Source of the DNA: a virus | Direction: 5' to 3' (one strand) | Virus record (IMG/VR): IMGVR_UViG_3300025736_000039 | Coordinates: 1 to 49,958 of that record | DNA: 49,958 bases | Part shown: one piece after another, positions 9,797-46,924 of the stretch | Layout of the letters: every line of letters begins with the position of its first letter | How positions within the stretch are numbered: the first letter of the stretch is position 1 | Notes under the pieces: generated by a model | Databases searched by the model: none | The model's input: the letters and a program-made list of their open reading frames with translations, nothing else | What the model was told of the DNA's origin: nothing | Made by a program: the position numbers and the translations under genes

Positions 9797-10067
9797 TATT
9801 ATCTCCTATTTCGTTAATCCAATTAACTAAACTGTTTATCTTTCTCTTACATAATAACTTAGCTTTTACCTTCCTTTTGTTTGGTTCCGCGATATTATCG
9901 GCACATAAATACATTCTTCCCGTTGAATCTTCAACAATTATTCTATAATACCAATAATCATACCTATTAAATAAGATATTACGAAATTGACAATTGCTAC
10001 TAGCTTTCATAATACTTATATAATAAGTTTCTTTATCAACCCATTGTAATCGTTTAGCTACAACCAC
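9789..10067 (-). CDS. small paralogue-family protein D (92 aa)
   Basis: A GTG start at 10067 is preferred because GGAG lies six bases before it; an upstream GTG at 10079 has no visible site. The protein begins MVVAKRLQWVDKETYYISI, has an aromatic beta-rich middle (YDYWYYRIIVED) and ends in a basic helix (KVKAKLLCKRKINSLV). The layout matches the three similar small proteins downstream, although identity is low. It overlaps the end of the ribonucleotide reductase gene by 14 bases. Function unknown. Confidence 0.62.
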   Translation of the reverse strand: MVVAKRLQWVDKETYYISIMKASSNCQFRNILFNRYDYWYYRIIVEDSTGRMYLCADNIAEPNKRKVKAKLLCKRKINSLVNWINEIGDNNG

Positions 10068-13000
10068 TTGTTGCTCCACAAGTTGTGCAGGAATGACAGG
10101 CGCCCGCTCTAACCATTATTCTACCACATTCAGGACATGGTGGAGAATCCTCTTGGCTAACATCAATTTCAACACTATTATCGTCCTCCTTTTCTTCCAT
10201 AACTTGAATAGAATTATAGCTCAAAGAATCCGATTTGTCAACGAAAGTTTTACCAATATAGCGGAAAATATAATCATAAATACTCTTGGCGAACGGAATA
10301 TCTTTGTTTCGTGTCATTCCGGCCGGTTCAAACCGCATATGACTAAATTTCTTTACAATATCCTCTAAAGGAACTCCATATTGTAATCCTAATGAAGTCA
10401 TTGTAGCGAACCCATCCATAAGGCCCGAAACGGTTGAGCCTTCCTTGCTCATAATAATGAATAATTCGCCGGGAGAACCATCAGGGAAAAGCCCAATAGT
10501 AATATATCCTTCATGTCCAGCTACATTAAACTTATGAGTAATAGCTTTACGTTCATCTGGTAATCGTTTACGTATACTTTTATTAGTAATCTTTATTTCT
10601 TTAGTAACGATAGTTTCTTTAGTTTCTCCCGCCTTTTTATTACTTAATGGTTGAATCTTTTTACTATTATTACGATAAACAGTAATAGATTTTAATCCCA
10701 TTTCCCACGCTTTAAAATAAATATTATAAATATCCTCAACAGTAGAACTTTCGGGAATATTTATTGTTTTCGATATTGCCCCGGAAAGAAATGGTTGAAC
10801 TGCGTTCATCATTTTCATATGACCAATAGCGGAAATTGATCTACCATTCCTATTAAGCGCGCAATCAAAGATAGCTAAATGTTCTTCTTTAACATCATCC
10901 AACGAATTGTAACCTAATTTATCTAAGGCGATTTGAACGCTTTTATTAGGAATCTCTATATCACCTCCGCCGGATAGTTTTTTATACGTTGTAAGTGCTA
11001 TTGATGGCTCAATTCCAGTTGTATCACAATCCATCATAAACCCAATAGTTCCACAAGGCGCTAATAATGTTACTTGGGCATTTCGTGTACCTGATTCCCC
11101 AATTCTTACATTAGTATCTACCCAAGAAAAATGTGCATCATTATTTCCATCAAAATAAGGCAAACAATCACAATATTTTTGGTGTTGGTTCATTATTTCG
11201 TAAAAAGATGTCTTATTATCGTCAAACATCTTAAATTGTCCACAATATTTAGCTAGATTAGCACTAGTTTTATATGCGTAGGAAGTCATTAAAGATGTAA
11301 TATAAGCAATAAGATTACATCCTTTATCGGAATCATAAGGAATAGCGCGGCGGAGAAGGAAAGAGCCAGCATTACTATAACCAAGACCTAAAGGACGATA
11401 TAAACTACTATTCTCTGCAATCTCTTTAGTTGGGTAGCAACTATTATCAACTAAAATATCTTGTGCTAAGATAATATGACTGATGGCTTTCTCAAAGCCA
11501 GTATTATCAAATGTTTTACCTATCATTTGATGTTCATCGAATTTTATTAGATTTAACGATGCAAGATTACAAGAAGAATCGTCAATGAAGCTGAATTCGC
11601 CGCAGTTATGTGTGATTACTCCTTCAATAACTCCCCAATGTGTTAAGGGTTCTGTAAAATCATATACTTTATGTAATCCTTCTACTTTTTTTACTGAGGC
11701 TACATAATATCCTCTTGAAACAATTAATTCTTCTAGTCTTATTTGTTTATACTTCTGAACAAAGGAAATATTTGAGGCAAAACTAAGAATATCGGAGAAT
11801 CTACTAATATTTACATCGTAGCTCTCCTTACATAAGTATTCACCATTATCAAATTTAACTTTTGTTGGCTTATTAGTTGTCAAATATGCTGAAATATTAA
11901 ATCGTAGATGTAATAACTTAATTAAATTATCTGCCAAATCTTTACAGGTAGTTTTGAATCCTACTCTTGCTTTCTTTATCACACAACCATTAGCTGTATA
12001 AAGGCCACACAGGAAAGAAGCAACATCTTTATCTGATACATTTATAGCAAATACCCATGATGGTATATTACGATAAGGTAGTTGTTCCGCACTCAATCTA
12101 AAATGCTTGGCAATATTCAGGCTATACCTAGAGTACACTTTATGACCGTTTAGTTCACCATCAGGGATATACTCTAGCATTTCAAGATCTTTTTTTCCAA
12201 TATTTACTTCTAATCCTTTATGTGCCTTAGAATTTAATCTTCCTGTGTTTTCATCACCTTGAATAAAACCGGCCAACAACAATTTGTCATCATTGTCAGA
12301 TACATCTTTAATCTTATAAAAAGGCATAATTCTTTTATGAGCTAAATCTTTTGCCTTACATGATGATCCATCATTCAGCATAAAATCATGATCTGGGGTA
12401 AATAACAGAGGACTTTTATTCTGCTGGTGACTAAAGTTAATACTTACTAATTCTTTTTCGCCTGTGTAAGTAATATCACTTCTTACTTTATCGCCATCTT
12501 TATTAATTATTTCTACTTCTTTCGCAACAAGATCCTCAATTTTCTTGTCTCCATCAGATGTTTTAATCATCATACTTCCTTGAATACAAGGATTAACATT
12601 TTTAATCTCAAAAGAATTACTACATGTATTCCATTTATTAGTATTATCGTGGAATATAATGCCTGGATCGCCACATTTCCATGCGGCTTTAGCTGCTCGC
12701 ATTAAAATATCTTTAGCCTTATGTGTTTCTGATACATTACCTGTTGTTATTTCTAATGTATTCCATTCTTTGTTGTCCCGCGCTGCTTTCATAAACTTAT
12801 CGGTTACACGAATAGAATGATTACTATTTTGGAAAAATACAGATTCATACGCTTCACCATTAAATGAACCATCATAGCCTTGTTTAATTAGTGCGTTTGC
12901 TTTTTCTTCCTCTTTAATTTTACAATTAATAAAATCTACAATATCGGGATGATCGCAGTTTAACATTACCATTTTAGCGGCACGTCTTGTCTTCCCGCCC

Positions 13001-13689
13001 GAGCGGATTGAAGCAGCAGTAACATCATAAATTTTCATCCATGATAATGGACCAGAGGCTTTCCCGCCTCCTTTAACATACTCCTTTGAGGAACGTAAAC
13101 TACTTAAATTAACGCCTGAACCAGACCCACCTTTAAAAATTAACCCTTCTTTTTTCACTAAATCTAAAATTGATTCCATATTATCATTAACGGAATTTAA
13201 GAAACATCCTCCTGCTTGTGCAAATTTCTCGTTTCCAACATTAAACCAAACAGGAGAATTAAATGAAAAATATTGATTAACTAATAACCACTTTAATTCA
13301 TCTTTAAAAATCTCTAGTGATTCCCCATTATAGTATCCTTGATTTAATCCCCAACCAGCAATTGTATCTACTACTCTTGTTATTAGGTCTTTTAAAGAGT
13401 ATTCTCTTTCTTCTGTTCCTAGTTTCCCGCGAAAATATTTACTAGATACAATATTAACTGCATTATCACTCCAAAAATCAGGAAAAATTACATTATCTTG
13501 TTCAAAGATAGGTTTATCTTTATTACCTTTAATAATTGCATCACGAAATGTCCAATTAATCTCGGAATCCCATTCCTTTAAATCTTTGGTAAAATATCTA
13601 GTTACCTCAATTGTTCCTTTACATTTTTCTGGATTAATAGAAAAAGTTCCATTATCATTCTTGTATACATCTACTTTACTATCTGACAT
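10054..13689 (-). CDS. nrdJ: adenosylcobalamin-dependent (class II) ribonucleotide reductase, intein-interrupted
   Basis: This 1211-residue precursor (883 residues after splicing) reduces ribonucleotides to deoxyribonucleotides using a B12-derived radical. Seen in order are FNSPVWFN (143-150), GGCFLNSV (160-167, first redox Cys), GGSGSGVNLSSLR (187-199), NP|CGEF at the intein junction (active-site Cys696), the CNLASLNL segment, RPLGLGYS, and TLLAPCGTIGF with the second redox Cys. A TSCPD domain follows, then a zinc-ribbon tail with CPEC and two further CxxC pairs, a typical NrdJ ending. The ATG at 13689 is used because AAAGG precedes it; it overlaps the upstream stop as TAATG. Carrying NrdJ makes phage dNTP supply independent of oxygen and of host class I enzyme. 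The identity is firm. Confidence 0.95.
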   Translation of the reverse strand: MSDSKVDVYKNDNGTFSINPEKCKGTIEVTRYFTKDLKEWDSEINWTFRDAIIKGNKDKPIFEQDNVIFPDFWSDNAVNIVSSKYFRGKLGTEEREYSLKDLITRVVDTIAGWGLNQGYYNGESLEIFKDELKWLLVNQYFSFNSPVWFNVGNEKFAQAGGCFLNSVNDNMESILDLVKKEGLIFKGGSGSGVNLSSLRSSKEYVKGGGKASGPLSWMKIYDVTAASIRSGGKTRRAAKMVMLNCDHPDIVDFINCKIKEEEKANALIKQGYDGSFNGEAYESVFFQNSNHSIRVTDKFMKAARDNKEWNTLEITTGNVSETHKAKDILMRAAKAAWKCGDPGIIFHDNTNKWNTCSNSFEIKNVNPCIQGSMMIKTSDGDKKIEDLVAKEVEIINKDGDKVRSDITYTGEKELVSINFSHQQNKSPLLFTPDHDFMLNDGSSCKAKDLAHKRIMPFYKIKDVSDNDDKLLLAGFIQGDENTGRLNSKAHKGLEVNIGKKDLEMLEYIPDGELNGHKVYSRYSLNIAKHFRLSAEQLPYRNIPSWVFAINVSDKDVASFLCGLYTANGCVIKKARVGFKTTCKDLADNLIKLLHLRFNISAYLTTNKPTKVKFDNGEYLCKESYDVNISRFSDILSFASNISFVQKYKQIRLEELIVSRGYYVASVKKVEGLHKVYDFTEPLTHWGVIEGVITHNCGEFSFIDDSSCNLASLNLIKFDEHQMIGKTFDNTGFEKAISHIILAQDILVDNSCYPTKEIAENSSLYRPLGLGYSNAGSFLLRRAIPYDSDKGCNLIAYITSLMTSYAYKTSANLAKYCGQFKMFDDNKTSFYEIMNQHQKYCDCLPYFDGNNDAHFSWVDTNVRIGESGTRNAQVTLLAPCGTIGFMMDCDTTGIEPSIALTTYKKLSGGGDIEIPNKSVQIALDKLGYNSLDDVKEEHLAIFDCALNRNGRSISAIGHMKMMNAVQPFLSGAISKTINIPESSTVEDIYNIYFKAWEMGLKSITVYRNNSKKIQPLSNKKAGETKETIVTKEIKITNKSIRKRLPDERKAITHKFNVAGHEGYITIGLFPDGSPGELFIIMSKEGSTVSGLMDGFATMTSLGLQYGVPLEDIVKKFSHMRFEPAGMTRNKDIPFAKSIYDYIFRYIGKTFVDKSDSLSYNSIQVMEEKEDDNSVEIDVSQEDSPPCPECGRIMVRAGACHSCTTCGATSGCS
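11605..12588 (-). mobile_element. LAGLIDADG-type intein inserted in the NrdJ active site
   Basis: Residues 368-695 of the precursor are a 328-residue intein beginning CIQGS and ending THN, precisely splitting NP|CGEF. Splicing residues are intact: Cys1, TPDH of block B (64-67), the final His-Asn, and Cys+1. Two LAGLIDADG-like motifs mark a homing endonuclease: LLAGFIQGDE (104-113), with the acidic residue present, and FLCGLYTANG (192-201), where N replaces the usual D. The second site may weaken cleavage, although this variant is also seen in other reductase inteins. Its DNA lacks the GCGGGA/TCCCGC words common in the flanking exteins, which fits later arrival. Confidence 0.93.
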
Positions 13690-13900
13690 TAACAAACCTT
13701 TCCGTGTTTATATGAACGTGTTTTATTATATTCCTTCGTATTTTCTATTCTGTTAATTATATCTTCGGGATCTTTAATCTCTAAATAATATCTTACTTGT
13801 AGCTTATAATTAACCCAAGTGAGATAATCATTCCAAAACAGAACCGTTTATATTGTATTTTATATCTATCGTTTTTATTCTTTAATATTCTATATTTCAT
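13689..13900 (-). pseudogene. small gene split by a -1 frameshift at TTTT (about 70 aa)
   Basis: From ATG 13900 (one base after the previous stop) the frame reads MKYRILKNKNDRYKIQYKRF and then FCFG before running to an early stop. Stepping back one base at the run of four T (minus-strand view of 13835-13838) opens WNDYLTWVNYKLQVRYYL and continues to HGKVC. Its TAA overlaps the nrdJ ATG as TAATG. Together the two parts resemble small phage proteins of the pattern MKYRI..YKIQ.K.FFFW. Either one T was lost recently, or ribosomes slip on G TTT TGG. No function is known. Confidence 0.55.
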
Positions 13901-14332: not shown

Positions 14333-14572
14333 ATGTCTTATCGTAAACTAGCGTTAAAGAGTTATCCACATTGTTGTGATATTTGTAATTATTGTACGTA
14401 TGTTCAAGTTCTTGAGGTTCATCATGTAGATTTCGATCATAACAATAATAGTATTCACAACTTACAAATACTTTGTCCAACGTGTCATAAAGAAATTCAT
14501 GTAATGAATAAACAAATGACTGAAACTGATATGATTGAAATAGAAGCACTAATTAACTCCAATGATTGGTGA
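14333..14572 (+). CDS. small HNH endonuclease, inserted on the opposite strand
   Basis: This 79-residue protein is a minimal HNH nuclease: CDIC (15-18) and CPTCH (48-52) form the zinc-binding cysteines, LEVHHVDFDHNNN (27-39) holds the catalytic His-His, and IHNLQILC (41-48) the Asn. It is the only plus-strand gene between 5793 and 16272. Its last 24 bases overlap the tail of the HD-phosphohydrolase gene on the other strand. No Shine-Dalgarno is seen. It contains none of the GCGGGA motifs, although at 240 bases that is weak evidence. A homing or moron-like insertion is likely. Confidence 0.85.
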   Translation: MSYRKLALKSYPHCCDICNYCTYVQVLEVHHVDFDHNNNSIHNLQILCPTCHKEIHVMNKQMTETDMIEIEALINSNDW

Positions 14573-15993: not shown

Positions 15994-16272
15994 TTATATA
16001 CTTGTACTAAGTAACTTTATCATATCAGTAATTTCCGCATATTTATCTTCAGCATAGACAAGAATTATGTCTAAATCATCAAACAAATCGCTTTCATGTG
16101 CTATAATTATATCGTTAGTCCCAAGAGTTATTTTGTGTTTTATAATCAAATAGAATTGATTTAAATCTGTTTTAATTATATATAACTTACTATATTTACA
16201 GGTATTATCAACAAGAATTTCGCCCTCATATCTTGTTTTCTTTTCATTCCATGTTATATCAAACGTGTTCAT
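15994..16272 (-). CDS. hypothetical protein, first gene of the minus operon (92 aa)
   Basis: The protein begins MNTFDITWNEKKTRYEGEIL and alternates short beta strands, with a DLFDDLDIILVYAED acidic stretch. It sits directly behind the strongest minus-strand promoter and a perfect AAGGAGG site. It is therefore probably among the most highly expressed products of the operon. First genes behind strong early promoters in phages often interfere with the host, but no motif shows this here. Confidence 0.72.
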   Translation of the reverse strand: MNTFDITWNEKKTRYEGEILVDNTCKYSKLYIIKTDLNQFYLIIKHKITLGTNDIIIAHESDLFDDLDIILVYAEDKYAEITDMIKLLSTSI

Positions 16273-16292: not shown

Positions 16293-16321
16293 ATCATAAT
16301 ATATTTAACTGTAAAAGTCAA
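16293..16321 (-). promoter_or_regulatory. strong sigma-70-type promoter for the minus operon
   Basis: Minus strand: TTGACT (16321-16316), exactly 17 bp, TATGAT (16298-16293). A start near 16286 gives a leader of about 14 bases that contains AAGGAGG before the ATG at 16272. It is the best-matching promoter in the window. Confidence 0.82.
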
Positions 16322-16337: not shown

Positions 16338-16365
16338 TTGACTCTATATATGTAATAGGTATAGT
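16338..16365 (+). promoter_or_regulatory. sigma-70-type promoter driving a short terminated transcript
   Basis: TTGACT (16338-16343), a 16-bp spacer and TATAGT (16360-16365). Transcription would begin near 16372 and meet a strong terminator at 16393-16418, before any gene. Confidence 0.7.
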
Positions 16366-16371
16366 TGAAAT

Positions 16372-16418
16372 ACATCCTTTCCTTCTCCTCCAGCCCCCAG
16401 CTTTTGGGGGCATTTTTA
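16372..16418 (+). ncRNA. candidate small RNA or attenuated leader with anti-Shine-Dalgarno sequence
   Basis: Between the promoter at 16338-16365 and the terminator lies a 5' segment of about 20 bases containing CCTTTCCTTCTCCTCC (16376-16391). It is complementary to purine-rich ribosome-binding sites. CTCCTCC (16385-16391) is perfectly complementary to GGAGGAG at 16481-16487, the ribosome-binding site of the next gene. Either a small RNA of about 47 bases is released, or read-through transcripts fold so that the site is masked. No coding frame is present. The RNA itself is inferred. Confidence 0.5.
16393..16418 (+). terminator. rho-independent terminator
   Basis: GCCCCC (16393-16398), loop AGCTTTT, GGGGGC (16406-16411), then ATTTTTA. 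It is strong and oriented for plus-strand transcription from 16338-16365. Confidence 0.85.
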
Positions 16419-16440
16419 GTCTAAGTTTTTTAAAAAATTG

Positions 16441-16469
16441 TTGACTTTTTGGCCGGAACCAAGTAAGGT
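16441..16469 (+). promoter_or_regulatory. promoter for the three small genes before the terminase
   Basis: TTGACT (16441-16446), a 17-bp spacer and TAAGGT (16464-16469). The -10 is poor but resembles the TAAAGT and TAAGTT boxes of the other promoters in the virion module. Confidence 0.5.
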
Positions 16470-16493
16470 AGAAAAATAATGGAGGAGGAAATA

Positions 16494-16691
16494 ATGCTAT
16501 CTGATAAGCAGAAAATAAGGAAATTAATGTTAGCGATAAAGCCAATTAGTGAAATGTATGAGGAATTAAAAGAATTAGGTATTGAGACTGATTTCTTATT
16601 ACAGTTTGGATCTGTTTGGTTATCAGACGAAACAATGTTTCACATAAATCATATTTATAATCAAATTAAAAAGGATGAAAGTAATGTATGA
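16494..16691 (+). CDS. hypothetical protein (65 aa)
   Basis: The ATG at 16494 is chosen because GGAGGAGGAAATA lies just before it; the ATG at 16479 precedes that site and would translate through it. The protein begins MLSDKQKIRKLMLAIKPISE and is helical and soluble. It starts the plus-strand unit ahead of the terminase. A small terminase subunit would be expected near here, but the product is too short and lacks an obvious DNA-binding helix-turn-helix. Function unknown. Confidence 0.7.
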   Translation: MLSDKQKIRKLMLAIKPISEMYEELKELGIETDFLLQFGSVWLSDETMFHINHIYNQIKKDESNV

Positions 16692-17147: not shown

Positions 17148-17169
17148 TTAAATATTCCTCCTTTATTTT

Positions 17170-17195
17170 ACCCGGCCCTTTGGTCGGGTATTTTC
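17170..17195 (+). terminator. rho-independent terminator after the small genes
   Basis: ACCCGGCC (17170-17177), a short CTTT loop, then GGTCGGGT (17182-17189) with one G-T pair, followed by ATTTTCG. It separates the small-gene unit from the terminase operon. Confidence 0.82.
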
Positions 17196-17327: not shown

Positions 17328-17355
17328 TTGACAATTTAAGTAAAATCTATAAGTT
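17328..17355 (+). promoter_or_regulatory. virion-module promoter upstream of the terminase
   Basis: TTGACA (17328-17333), a 16-bp spacer and TAAGTT (17350-17355). AATAATTTGACAA at the -35 is shared with the promoter at 46941. The -10 is weak, as in the other promoters of this class. Confidence 0.6.
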
Positions 17356-21473: not shown

Positions 21474-21501
21474 TTGACAATCATAAATAACTATGTAAAG
21501 T
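21474..21501 (+). promoter_or_regulatory. virion-module promoter ahead of the scaffold and capsid genes
   Basis: TTGACA (21474-21479), 16 bp, TAAAGT (21496-21501). The box pair and spacing are the same as at 26589-26616. It leaves a leader of about 70 bases. Confidence 0.65.
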
Positions 21502-21574
21502 TTCTGTACATACCCATTATAACATAATGATGATAGCGGGTCAAGTGAAATATAACTAGTAAGGAGATAAACTA

Positions 21575-26588: not shown

Positions 26589-26616
26589 TTGACAGTAAAT
26601 ATAATTTGTGTAAAGT
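26589..26616 (+). promoter_or_regulatory. virion-module promoter for sheath and tube genes
   Basis: TTGACA (26589-26594), 16 bp, TAAAGT (26611-26616), identical in boxes and spacing to the promoter at 21474. The leader of about 65 bases carries GGAGG before the sheath ATG. Confidence 0.65.
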
Positions 26617-26687
26617 AAGTATACATAAGCGGCAGAAAAATAATAATTATATGAGCCGACTGACTAAAAACAATACGGAGGCTTCAT

Positions 26688-42673: not shown

Positions 42674-45600
42674 ATGGGAACCGCGACTCCAAATGTAAGT
42701 GCTAATACTTTTGATGCAACTAGATTCTTTCAGAAAGTAATTCAATTACAAAATCAAGCCTTAACAGATTATGATTATAACGAAAGTCAAGACTTACTTG
42801 TCTATAGAGACTTTTTACTAAATAAAGCTCTTTTTTCCTCCGGCGCAAGAATAGAAAATGGTTTTAGATGTTCCACTATTTTCCCAACACCGGCGGCAAA
42901 TAACTTTCTATCTTTATTGGGCTATGCTATTATTAACGGAAGCGTTATATATAACGATACCTCTTGGTATTACAACGCATTTAATAATGCTGGATCACTA
43001 ATAGATTCAAGTTATAGCAATAGAGTTGATGATGGAGTTATCTCAAGTACAAATAATATTAGTTTAGAAATTACTGATGTAAATAAAGATTGGAATTCAT
43101 ATCATGATCTAACTAGTTGTCGTGTTGTAATGACATCTGGTTCCGAAATAGGTAATGTTTTTAATATTCAAGGTACTTGGCAAAATGGTTGGTCAAGTAA
43201 TAAGTTACGATTAGGTAGTTTAGGATCATCTGGAGGTATCAGTGTAAATGATACTTATGTTATATTACCACCAGTATTAACTACATTTAATACATCATTT
43301 GCTAATACAGAAAGAAATGATGTTATTTATATTCAGTTAATGTTTAGTTATATTAACTCTGATGAAGAAGATTATTTACCTTCTACTTCTAACTTTGAAA
43401 CATCGCAACGATTAAAAATGCATTGGTGCGTAAGAGTAGCAGAAGGATCTGAAACGGCTACTGGATCTATGATTGATGGAGTTGTTCCAACTAATCAAGG
43501 ATCAGATCAATATGATACTGTTTACTTTAAATTAGCCGATTTGGTAAGAGATGATGGCGATACTACTATTAATACTTCTGAGATGACAATGGTTGATGGA
43601 GTTGTTATTGATTTTGCGGAATTAAGCCAAGAAATTAAAAATGCGCGGGAGAGTGAATGGGGCGGAACATATACAAATTTAGATAATAGACTAGAAGCTA
43701 TAGAAGATGTATTAGCAGCATTACCAATAAAGAACGGTAATTTTGAACAAGGCTCAACGGTAGGTTCAGATATAACTGGTTGGTTTATTAATTCTAATGG
43801 TGATACTCCTACAACAGCCTTTAAATTAGATAACGCTTCCCCTTATTCTGGTAAATATTGTCTTAAGATAGATCATTCTGGTTTTAATAAGAGCCTACCT
43901 GTTACTTCTTCTTTAAGTAGTTATCCCTTTTATATTTCTCCCGGCGCTAAAATAAAATTATCAGGTTTTACTAAAACAGACTCAACTGCAACAATTAATA
44001 TTTATTTAGACGAATTTACAGAATCACAAGGATGGTTTGATACGCCTAACACATCTACGGCTATTTTAGTAAGTAATACAACTGCTTGGGCCGAATCAAC
44101 ATCCGAAATAACATTACAAGATGACTCAAAATGGGCGCGGGTGAGAATAAAGGCTGCTAATCAAGAAGTAGATAAAGATGTATACATTGATTCAATAAAA
44201 GGAATATATATAGAAGGTGGTGAATCTTTTGCTAATACAGAATTTAATCTGGTAGAAACGTTTAGTGATAACTTTAATAATGGATCAAAATTATGGATCG
44301 GTGAATTTAATTCTATTTATCCTTTTGAAATAGAAACACATGCTAGCGATATAAGCAATCTAAAAATTACAGTTGGTTCTGATAATCCTATTTTTAGTAG
44401 TGTTCCTATAAGTATTGGTTCGACTAGTGAACTAGATGATTTCTTAAATATTTCTATGGAAGTTAGATATGATAATACTGAAATAAGGAATCTTTCTGGA
44501 CAAGATAAAGGACCAGGATATTATGTTGAATTTTTAGACTCTGAACTAGAAACACTATCAACATCTACAGAACTACTTTGTGTCACATTTGATAACGGAG
44601 AGCAAGTATACGTTACGAATATTAATAATCCTGATAATACGGATTATAATATATATTCATCTTCGTTTGAGGTACCGAAAAATACTGAATTTTACAGAAT
44701 AGTATTTATAACAAACGGTTTTTCCGGTATAGCTTATTTTAGAAATATAAAAATGTTTCGTGTTAGTAAGCAAATTAACCTAAATAAGAACGTGTTTAAT
44801 ATTCTTGATAATGGTGAATTTGGTTGTGGTTATGGTAATAATGCTAGTTCCGATCCGGCACGAAATACCTTCTCTATTGACCATTGGGAATTAGAAGAAG
44901 AAACAACTAGTCAAGTAATCCATTGGGTTAAAGGTTCGGCTAAGTATGGTGATAGACATTTATTATTTGATTTTACTAGTATACCCGACACCGATTCTGT
45001 CAGAACAGTTTACGCTAGAAATTATCTTACGACAAATATTACACAAGAAATGCGTAGAACAGGAATTACATTAGAATTCTATTACAAATTTTCTGATCGA
45101 ATTGACGATTATCTCACCGCAGAACTCGACTTATTAGATTCAACAGGTACTAGTGTAGCGGCACCATTAAATTTTTATACCGCTAGTACTGGAACCGATG
45201 TAGCATCTTGGACTAAAGCAACCGTTTCAACAGCTATATCAGATAATGCCGTTAAGATTATGGTTAGACTATCCGCTAGTGGAGTTAGAACGCCAACTAC
45301 CGGGGCTAATCTAACATATAAGGCATATTTTTCCGCTATCTCATTATGGTGTCAAACATCATCTATTCCATCATGGAATAACGAATTAACTGATAATTTT
45401 GCACTAGATCATAAGGTTTCATATGAGTCAACATCAGGAGCGCATAAAAGCCTAACTTGGGAAGGTGATTATACTATAAGTACCGGACCAAGTTATAAAA
45501 TGTTTGAATCAATTGAACTAAATAGTTCTAAACTACGTGGTTTTTATGATGATGACGTATATTGGATAACACTAAATGCTGACACTAATGGACTATCTGG

Positions 45601-46924
45601 ATGGGCTAAAGACACAACAGCAAAAAACTCTAGTGCCTTGTACTTAGACGACGATGAGTTTAAAGTTCGTTTTCATCCATCCGGCGGAGGATTCGGCGCT
45701 TGGTCAGATAAATTGTCAGTTAATTTATCAACTGGTGCTACTACTATAACAGGTAGTTTATCGGTTACAGGAGCATCAACATTTAATGATGATGTTGTAA
45801 TATCTGCTGGTAAAGATTTAGCTATTGGTGGAACATTAGAAGTTGATGGGATATCAACATTTAATGATGATGTTGTAATATCTGCTGGTAAAGATTTAGC
45901 TATTGGTGGAACATTAGAAGTTGATGGGATATCAACATTTAATGATGATGTTGTAATATCTGCCGGTAAGGATTTAGCTATTGGTGGAACATTAGGCGTA
46001 ACAGGCGCTACTACATTAGGAAGCACATTAGCTGTTACAGGAATATCCACATTAAATAATGTTGTTAATATTATTGGCGTTTCTTCTCATTTATCCATTG
46101 GTGGTAATTTAACTGTAACCGGTACATCGACATTAACAGGAGATGTATCTCTTAGTAATGATATATTATTAACAACAGGGAACGAAATTAAGCTAGGTAA
46201 TAGCCAAGAAGGTAGAATTTATTATGATGGTTCTGAATTAGTACTAAGTTCTAATAGCGGTTCTGATAATATAAGACTTATTGGCGATATTATTACCAAT
46301 AATAATATTTATATGGATTCTGATTCTACAAAGTTAAGATTTGGTGAGGATCAAGATTTTTCTATATATTTTAATGGTACAGATCTTGTAATAGAACAAG
46401 ATGTTGGTTCTGGTGTTATTAAACTTGATCAAGATATTCAAATAGTTGGTGATATTACATCAGTACAAGGTATAACAACAACATTACATTCAGTAATTCG
46501 TGTATTACCGGCTACTATAGCCATGCCAGAACCGGTAACACAAGGAACACCAGGATCAGGATTAGGCTGGGAAATAAGAAGAGACACAAATAGGATTTAT
46601 TGGCAATGTAATGATATTAATACAGAAGTATATTACCCAATTACATTACCAATAGGAGCAGTAATTACTGATATAACGATTAATTATTTAGTACCATCCG
46701 GTACTATGACATCAAGGCTTTATCAGGATGCTAATGATAGTTCATCCTCAACATCTGATTTTATCTCCGGTGCATCTACATCTTGGGCAACAATGTCAAT
46801 TACAGGGCTTTCTATAGCAGTTGTTAGTACTATGAATTATAATCTTTCTATCGTTGCTTCCGCCGCCGATTCCAAAGTAGGTGCAGTTGAAATTACATAT
46901 AGCCAAACAAATCTATTGGGATAA
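42674..46924 (+). CDS. large tail fibre / receptor-binding protein (1416 aa)
   Basis: The protein begins MGTATPNVSANTFDATRFFQ; residues up to about 340 resemble the baseplate-attachment part of phage fibres. Next come two jelly-roll-like regions of the carbohydrate-binding type: NGNFEQGSTVGSDITGWFIN (about 355-375) and NILDNGEFGCGYGNN (about 710-725). The C-terminal part has GISTFNDDVVISAGKDLAIG-type repeats, and then a beta-rich tip. It probably recognises surface sugars. AGGAGAATAATCA precedes the ATG. It is the longest gene in the window and ends the baseplate operon. Confidence 0.82.
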   Translation: MGTATPNVSANTFDATRFFQKVIQLQNQALTDYDYNESQDLLVYRDFLLNKALFSSGARIENGFRCSTIFPTPAANNFLSLLGYAIINGSVIYNDTSWYYNAFNNAGSLIDSSYSNRVDDGVISSTNNISLEITDVNKDWNSYHDLTSCRVVMTSGSEIGNVFNIQGTWQNGWSSNKLRLGSLGSSGGISVNDTYVILPPVLTTFNTSFANTERNDVIYIQLMFSYINSDEEDYLPSTSNFETSQRLKMHWCVRVAEGSETATGSMIDGVVPTNQGSDQYDTVYFKLADLVRDDGDTTINTSEMTMVDGVVIDFAELSQEIKNARESEWGGTYTNLDNRLEAIEDVLAALPIKNGNFEQGSTVGSDITGWFINSNGDTPTTAFKLDNASPYSGKYCLKIDHSGFNKSLPVTSSLSSYPFYISPGAKIKLSGFTKTDSTATINIYLDEFTESQGWFDTPNTSTAILVSNTTAWAESTSEITLQDDSKWARVRIKAANQEVDKDVYIDSIKGIYIEGGESFANTEFNLVETFSDNFNNGSKLWIGEFNSIYPFEIETHASDISNLKITVGSDNPIFSSVPISIGSTSELDDFLNISMEVRYDNTEIRNLSGQDKGPGYYVEFLDSELETLSTSTELLCVTFDNGEQVYVTNINNPDNTDYNIYSSSFEVPKNTEFYRIVFITNGFSGIAYFRNIKMFRVSKQINLNKNVFNILDNGEFGCGYGNNASSDPARNTFSIDHWELEEETTSQVIHWVKGSAKYGDRHLLFDFTSIPDTDSVRTVYARNYLTTNITQEMRRTGITLEFYYKFSDRIDDYLTAELDLLDSTGTSVAAPLNFYTASTGTDVASWTKATVSTAISDNAVKIMVRLSASGVRTPTTGANLTYKAYFSAISLWCQTSSIPSWNNELTDNFALDHKVSYESTSGAHKSLTWEGDYTISTGPSYKMFESIELNSSKLRGFYDDDVYWITLNADTNGLSGWAKDTTAKNSSALYLDDDEFKVRFHPSGGGFGAWSDKLSVNLSTGATTITGSLSVTGASTFNDDVVISAGKDLAIGGTLEVDGISTFNDDVVISAGKDLAIGGTLEVDGISTFNDDVVISAGKDLAIGGTLGVTGATTLGSTLAVTGISTLNNVVNIIGVSSHLSIGGNLTVTGTSTLTGDVSLSNDILLTTGNEIKLGNSQEGRIYYDGSELVLSSNSGSDNIRLIGDIITNNNIYMDSDSTKLRFGEDQDFSIYFNGTDLVIEQDVGSGVIKLDQDIQIVGDITSVQGITTTLHSVIRVLPATIAMPEPVTQGTPGSGLGWEIRRDTNRIYWQCNDINTEVYYPITLPIGAVITDITINYLVPSGTMTSRLYQDANDSSSSTSDFISGASTSWATMSITGLSIAVVSTMNYNLSIVASAADSKVGAVEITYSQTNLLG
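45776..46003 (+). repeat. 78-bp in-frame tandem repeats in the fibre gene
   Basis: Units start at 45776, 45854 and 45932 (26 residues each). Units 1 and 2 are identical in DNA; unit 3 differs by two bases before it diverges after about 66 bases. The lack of silent changes points to recent expansion. Confidence 0.9.

Follow-up and report, generated by a model that had tools for sequence, protein, structure and literature searches.

At the junction of two oppositely oriented gene blocks, a promoter (P1) is predicted to drive a non-coding RNA of about 47 nt whose 5′ end is complementary to the translation start of the following gene (gene 1). We tentatively favour reading the locus as a leader directed against the initiation region of gene 1, comparable to the streptococcal csRNAs or to the leader of T4 gene e, while placing this somewhat short of an even chance. 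P1 is the best-supported part of the locus, and is more credible than first claimed. The observation that drew attention to the locus was confirmed, and its interpretation is partly supported.

Genome context and features of the locus

The window (the whole stretch of viral DNA analysed, a virus record of 49,958 bases) has a GC content of 32%, and the presence of a tail sheath gene indicates a contractile-tailed phage. Genes between about 7.4 and 16.3 kb run mostly leftward and include a class II ribonucleotide reductase, a dNMP phosphatase and a phosphoesterase. From 16.5 kb the genes run rightward, with three small genes of unknown function followed by terminase, portal, major head protein, tail sheath and tape measure. 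The locus occupies the 206 bp divergent gap from the leftward gene 15994–16272 to gene 1, which matched no protein family. Its features are:

16293–16321, minus strand: divergent promoter of the leftward gene 15994–16272, TTGACT-17-TATGAT, found by promoter scan
16338–16365, plus strand: promoter P1, TTGACT (16338–16343)-N16-TATAGT (16360–16365), 10/12 consensus, found by promoter scan
16371–16375, plus strand: TACAT, common to three promoters of one class; predicted start at A16372, 7 nt after the -10 box
16373–16388, plus strand: 5′ arm, anti-initiation-region segment CAUCCUUUCCUUCUCC, pairing with 16481–16496
16376–16391, plus strand: pure pyrimidine tract CCTTTCCTTCTCCTCC, of a composition unique in the window
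16393–16418, plus strand: intrinsic terminator, GCCCCC hairpin and ATTTTTA; an orphan, with no plus strand gene immediately upstream
16441–16469, plus strand: candidate promoter P2, TTGACT-N17-TAAGGT, weak; start expected near 16476, between the arms
16481–16496, plus strand: 3′ arm, comprising the gene 1 Shine–Dalgarno sequence (SD; AGGAGG, 16483–16488) and AUG (16494–16496)
16494–16691, plus strand: gene 1, 65 aa, function unknown; alternative in-frame ATG at 16479

Elsewhere in the window, the ribonucleotide reductase gene (10054–13695) carries a LAGLIDADG domain within its barrel domain, probably an intein, and a small HNH endonuclease ORF on the plus strand (14333–14572) lies within the leftward block and overlaps the end of the dNMP phosphatase gene. 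A tandem repeat of about 78 bp (45775–45995; nearly three copies, 97–99% alike) is found within the gene for a 1416 aa protein (42674–46924).

P1 belongs to a class of three promoters

The pattern TTGACW-N16-TAWAGT-N5-TACAT occurs without mismatch at exactly three plus strand sites of the window (16338–16375, 21474–21511 and 26589–26626), against 0.07 expected, and no further sites appear at up to two mismatches. The value of 0.07 overstates the surprise somewhat because the pattern was written after its three sites had been seen. Even so, the exact register over 38 bp shared by the three sites is hard to reach by chance. The two sister promoters stand ahead of structural operons, one before a head-region gene and the other before the tail sheath gene, so P1 probably fires together with the structural genes. 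The transcript start ACAU is itself a feature of the class, and its CAU is thus not independent evidence for pairing with an AUG. At 21474–21544, two strong promoters overlap face to face (TTGACA-16-TAAAGT on the plus strand and TTGACC-17-TATAAT on the minus strand).

A predicted short RNA with an unpaired leader

The RNA predicted from P1 extends over about 47 nt, from A16372 to around 16418, and has no start codon ahead of the hairpin. Its leader reads ACATCCTTTCCTTCTCCTCCA. The hairpin, GCCCCCAGCTTTTGGGGGC at 16393–16411, has 8 pairs, six of them G-C, and is followed by ATTTTTA; this terminator is beyond chance, and strong terminators are few in the window. By prediction, the terminator hairpin (-15 kcal/mol, z -3.1) is the only structure that the RNA forms, and the first 21 nt of the transcript stay unpaired. 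Reading and scanning bore out the promoter, the transcript of about 47 nt and the strong terminator of the original prediction. The Rfam search of the window gave no RNA family match above the gathering score.

Within the leader lies the tract CCTTTCCTTCTCCTCC; no other 16-mer on either strand of the window is all pyrimidine and contains 9 or more C. The CTCCTCC at 16385–16391 is by itself not beyond chance, with three plus strand copies in the window. The proposed mimicry of the 16S rRNA 3′ end is not supported beyond CCUCC, and CCTCC is present in 20 copies on the plus strand.

A promoter with an immediate terminator, placed ahead of the small genes and the terminase-portal-capsid block, resembles the lambdoid pR′-tR′ arrangement (PMC6606751), and would suit a late transcript that is stopped until a phage antiterminator acts. 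We consider this unlikely. A -10-like pause element is a defining part of Q loading at the late leader (PMC6606751), but none is present in the first 29 nt of the P1 transcript (best 3/6), and neither of the two sister promoters has a nearby terminator. The gene 1–3 set closes with its own terminator at 17169, and a separate TTGACA promoter at 17328 serves the terminase. No antiterminator, and no recognised Q, was found among the proteins of the window scanned against PHROGs, in a record that may be a fragment.

Predicted pairing of the leader with the start of gene 1

GGAGGAG at 16481–16487 overlaps the strong SD of gene 1 and is complementary to CTCCTCC, as originally noted, but the pairing is longer than that 7-mer. 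Positions 16378–16388 pair with 16481–16491 over the SD (11 bp, one G-U), and CAU (16373–16375) pairs with the AUG at 16494–16496 (3 bp). The duplex, CAU-CC-UUUCCUUCUCC (16373–16388) with GGAGGAGGAAA-UA-AUG (16481–16496), has a predicted energy of -19.5 kcal/mol, and an unguided repeat finder recovered the same 16 nt arms as an inverted repeat (81%).

With the ribosome-binding site (RBS) of gene 1 held fixed, the observed energy was matched by 11–28 of 1000 dinucleotide-shuffled leaders and by 6 of 2481 other 55 nt windows of the genome. Base-shuffled leaders gave p 0.004, or p 0.03 when the CAU of the promoter class was left out. The pairing is therefore modestly beyond chance (p about 0.002–0.03), for a locus picked after the fact. 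Among the gene starts examined, the RBS of gene 1 is the best target of the leader, followed by those of the leftward genes 15299 (-16.7 kcal/mol) and 16272 (-15.8 kcal/mol). The gene 1 RBS finds similarly good partners at a few other plus strand positions. A second anti-SD-like stretch, ATTCCTCCTTTATTTT, is found at 17155–17190, ahead of the terminator of the gene 1–3 set, and pairs with the gene 1 RBS at -17.5 kcal/mol.

The original prediction extended to a wider damping of translation from strong GGAGG sites, which is energetically possible (-16.7 and -15.8, vs -19.5 for gene 1) but gained no independent evidence. A related scenario, in which the RNA of about 47 nt is made with the structural genes and acts broadly in trans, hiding the gene 1 start as well as those of the leftward genes 16272 and 15299, which read AGGAGGAAAGAAUG, and so helping to switch off that block, appears quite improbable.

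Another explanation places the function of the tract on the minus strand, where it reads GGAGGAGAAGGAAAGGATG and would supply the RBS and start codon of an ORF of 13 codons situated before the leftward gene 15994–16272. Two divergent RBS-ATG modules are mutually complementary by construction, and AGAAGGAAAGGATG is identical at 12 of 14 positions to AGGAGGAAAGAATG, which forms the RBS and start of leftward genes 16272 and 15299. On the other hand, the ORF has 13 codons, encoded by the AT-rich stretch of P1; the promoter scan showed no minus strand promoter upstream of the ORF, and the leftward promoter (16321–16293) is downstream. The chance that this explanation is correct seems slim.

Predicted masking of the ribosome-binding site and candidate promoter P2

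In RNA that starts at P1 and reads through the terminator, the SD of gene 1 has a predicted unpaired probability of only 0.04–0.07, compared to 0.80–0.85 in RNA started at P2, while the accessibility of the AUG is predicted to be the same in both. Masking of the SD by read-through RNA, as had been proposed, is thus seen in the predicted folds, but it is mostly an effect of composition. Equal masking was given by 30% of shuffled leaders of the same composition vs 2% of random leaders of genome-like composition, so it owes more to the presence of the pyrimidine tract than to the order of its bases.

The second promoter of the original prediction retains its TTGACT and its suitable placement, but it is weak. 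Its -10 box, TAAGGT, matches at only 3/6 positions, which explains why the promoter scan did not list it. P2 is no more than plausible, given that intergenic TTGAC sites of the plus strand are generally followed by a suitably spaced TANNNT box. The spacer of P2 (16441–16469) includes an inverted repeat, TTGG-CCGGAA-CCAA, that is a possible operator, and TTGACTTTT of P2 recurs in the leftward promoter at 16321–16313.

The share of shuffled leaders that mask the SD equally well is also what would be expected if the locus were an insulator or attenuator with no role for base pairing. The terminator would then keep transcripts from P1, and any stray rightward ones, from reaching P2 and gene 1. The pyrimidine tract would be a lead-in of the type that precedes other terminators of these phages, and the SD complementarity would follow from composition. 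This explanation is well within reason, although it too falls short of being probable. Against it, the tract of P1 is unique, no other long pyrimidine run in the window being as rich in C, and the order of bases within it still contributes to the pairing (p 0.004–0.03). In addition, P1 makes no coding RNA, and a promoter with all of its output stopped needs another reason. We lean slightly to the anti-initiation leader over the insulator because P1 is real by its class, its entire output is non-coding, and the only free segment of that output fits the start of gene 1 best of the starts examined.

Related viruses

The collections searched yielded no relative that extends across the locus. Among the viral contigs searched, gene 1, gene 2 and two leftward genes have no relatives, nor do gene 1, gene 2 and the 92 aa leftward gene among the phages searched, and an exact scan for the leader returned no matches in the collection searched. 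Two contigs carry an identical terminase but break off before the locus is reached. The next terminase relatives are about 38–43% identical over the aligned protein, and the genome contigs provided only relatives of 32–34%. Upstream of the terminase in the 14 distant relatives checked, there is no promoter-terminator cassette of the P1 kind.

In five relatives (L011, L023, L030, L031 and L032), the terminator just upstream of the terminase is preceded by 25 nt that are 60–80% pyrimidine, and in three of these five the lead-in contains CTCCT. The lead-ins pair with the next start no better than shuffles, and those starts do not have a strong SD. The terminator at 17169 in the window also has a pyrimidine-rich lead-in in this range, TTCCTCCTTTATTTT. 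Pyrimidine lead-ins that occur without SD pairing support the insulator explanation based on composition, and it is possible that they are a general feature of these phages; the set of five is small, was noticed during searching, and is treated as a lead. Another pyrimidine-rich lead-in directly before an intrinsic terminator is found at L087:955.

Comparison with known systems

The CiaR-dependent csRNAs of streptococci are short intergenic RNAs running from promoter to terminator (51–202 nt), with unpaired anti-SD and anti-AUG stretches (PMC3091779). The P1 RNA resembles them in presenting CAU plus CUUCUCCUCC, predicted to be unpaired, in a short terminated intergenic RNA. It differs in its length of about 47 nt, in having one hairpin rather than two flanking stem-loops, in the lack of the TTTAAG-N5-TTTAAG repeat of the CiaR promoter from P1, and in being encoded by a phage with an adjacent gene of the same strand as its best target.

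In the T4 genes e, soc, 49 and I-TevI, a helix hides the SD in RNA started upstream, and a promoter between the arms provides RNA with a free SD (PMC3014915, PMC2988022). As in e and I-TevI, the SD of gene 1 is predicted to be hidden only in the upstream-started RNA. P2 is rightly placed for the inter-arm promoter, but has a weak sigma70-like box and is not a T4 late promoter. Unlike T4 e and I-TevI, the arms here are 92 nt apart with an intrinsic terminator between them, so that masked RNA would arise only via read-through. The c4 RNA of phages P1 and P7 is an antisense RNA that pairs around an RBS to block translation, with pairing segments thought to be in loops (PMC12197685). Pairing around an RBS is likewise predicted here, but from a 5′ tail that is single-stranded and belongs to a far smaller RNA. 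The locus appears to work like the csRNAs and like T4 e and I-TevI, and is assigned to neither group.

Proposed mechanism and significance

From the promoters and their class, the terminator, the arms and the predicted folds, all of which are read directly from the DNA, we infer expression, timing, functional pairing and P2 activity as follows. P1, as one of a three-member class, would make the non-coding RNA of about 47 nt, with its terminator hairpin beginning 21 nt past the start, and the free 5′ end (CAU and anti-SD) would be directed against the initiation region of gene 1. When transcription reads through the terminator, this end would fold onto the SD and block translation of gene 1, and the released RNA could block gene 1 in trans as well. 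RNA started at P2 would not include the 5′ arm and would be translatable. Gene 1 and the small genes downstream would then be kept low while P1 dominates, and come on once P2 fires.

If the anti-initiation leader is not correct, the locus would be a warning that pyrimidine-rich lead-ins ahead of terminators yield false anti-SD RNAs. If it is correct, a csRNA-like anti-start RNA and a masked start of the T4 type, with its internal promoter, would be joined in less than 160 bp, with the terminator between the arms, and SD masking would be in use at a switch point by a phage far from the models.
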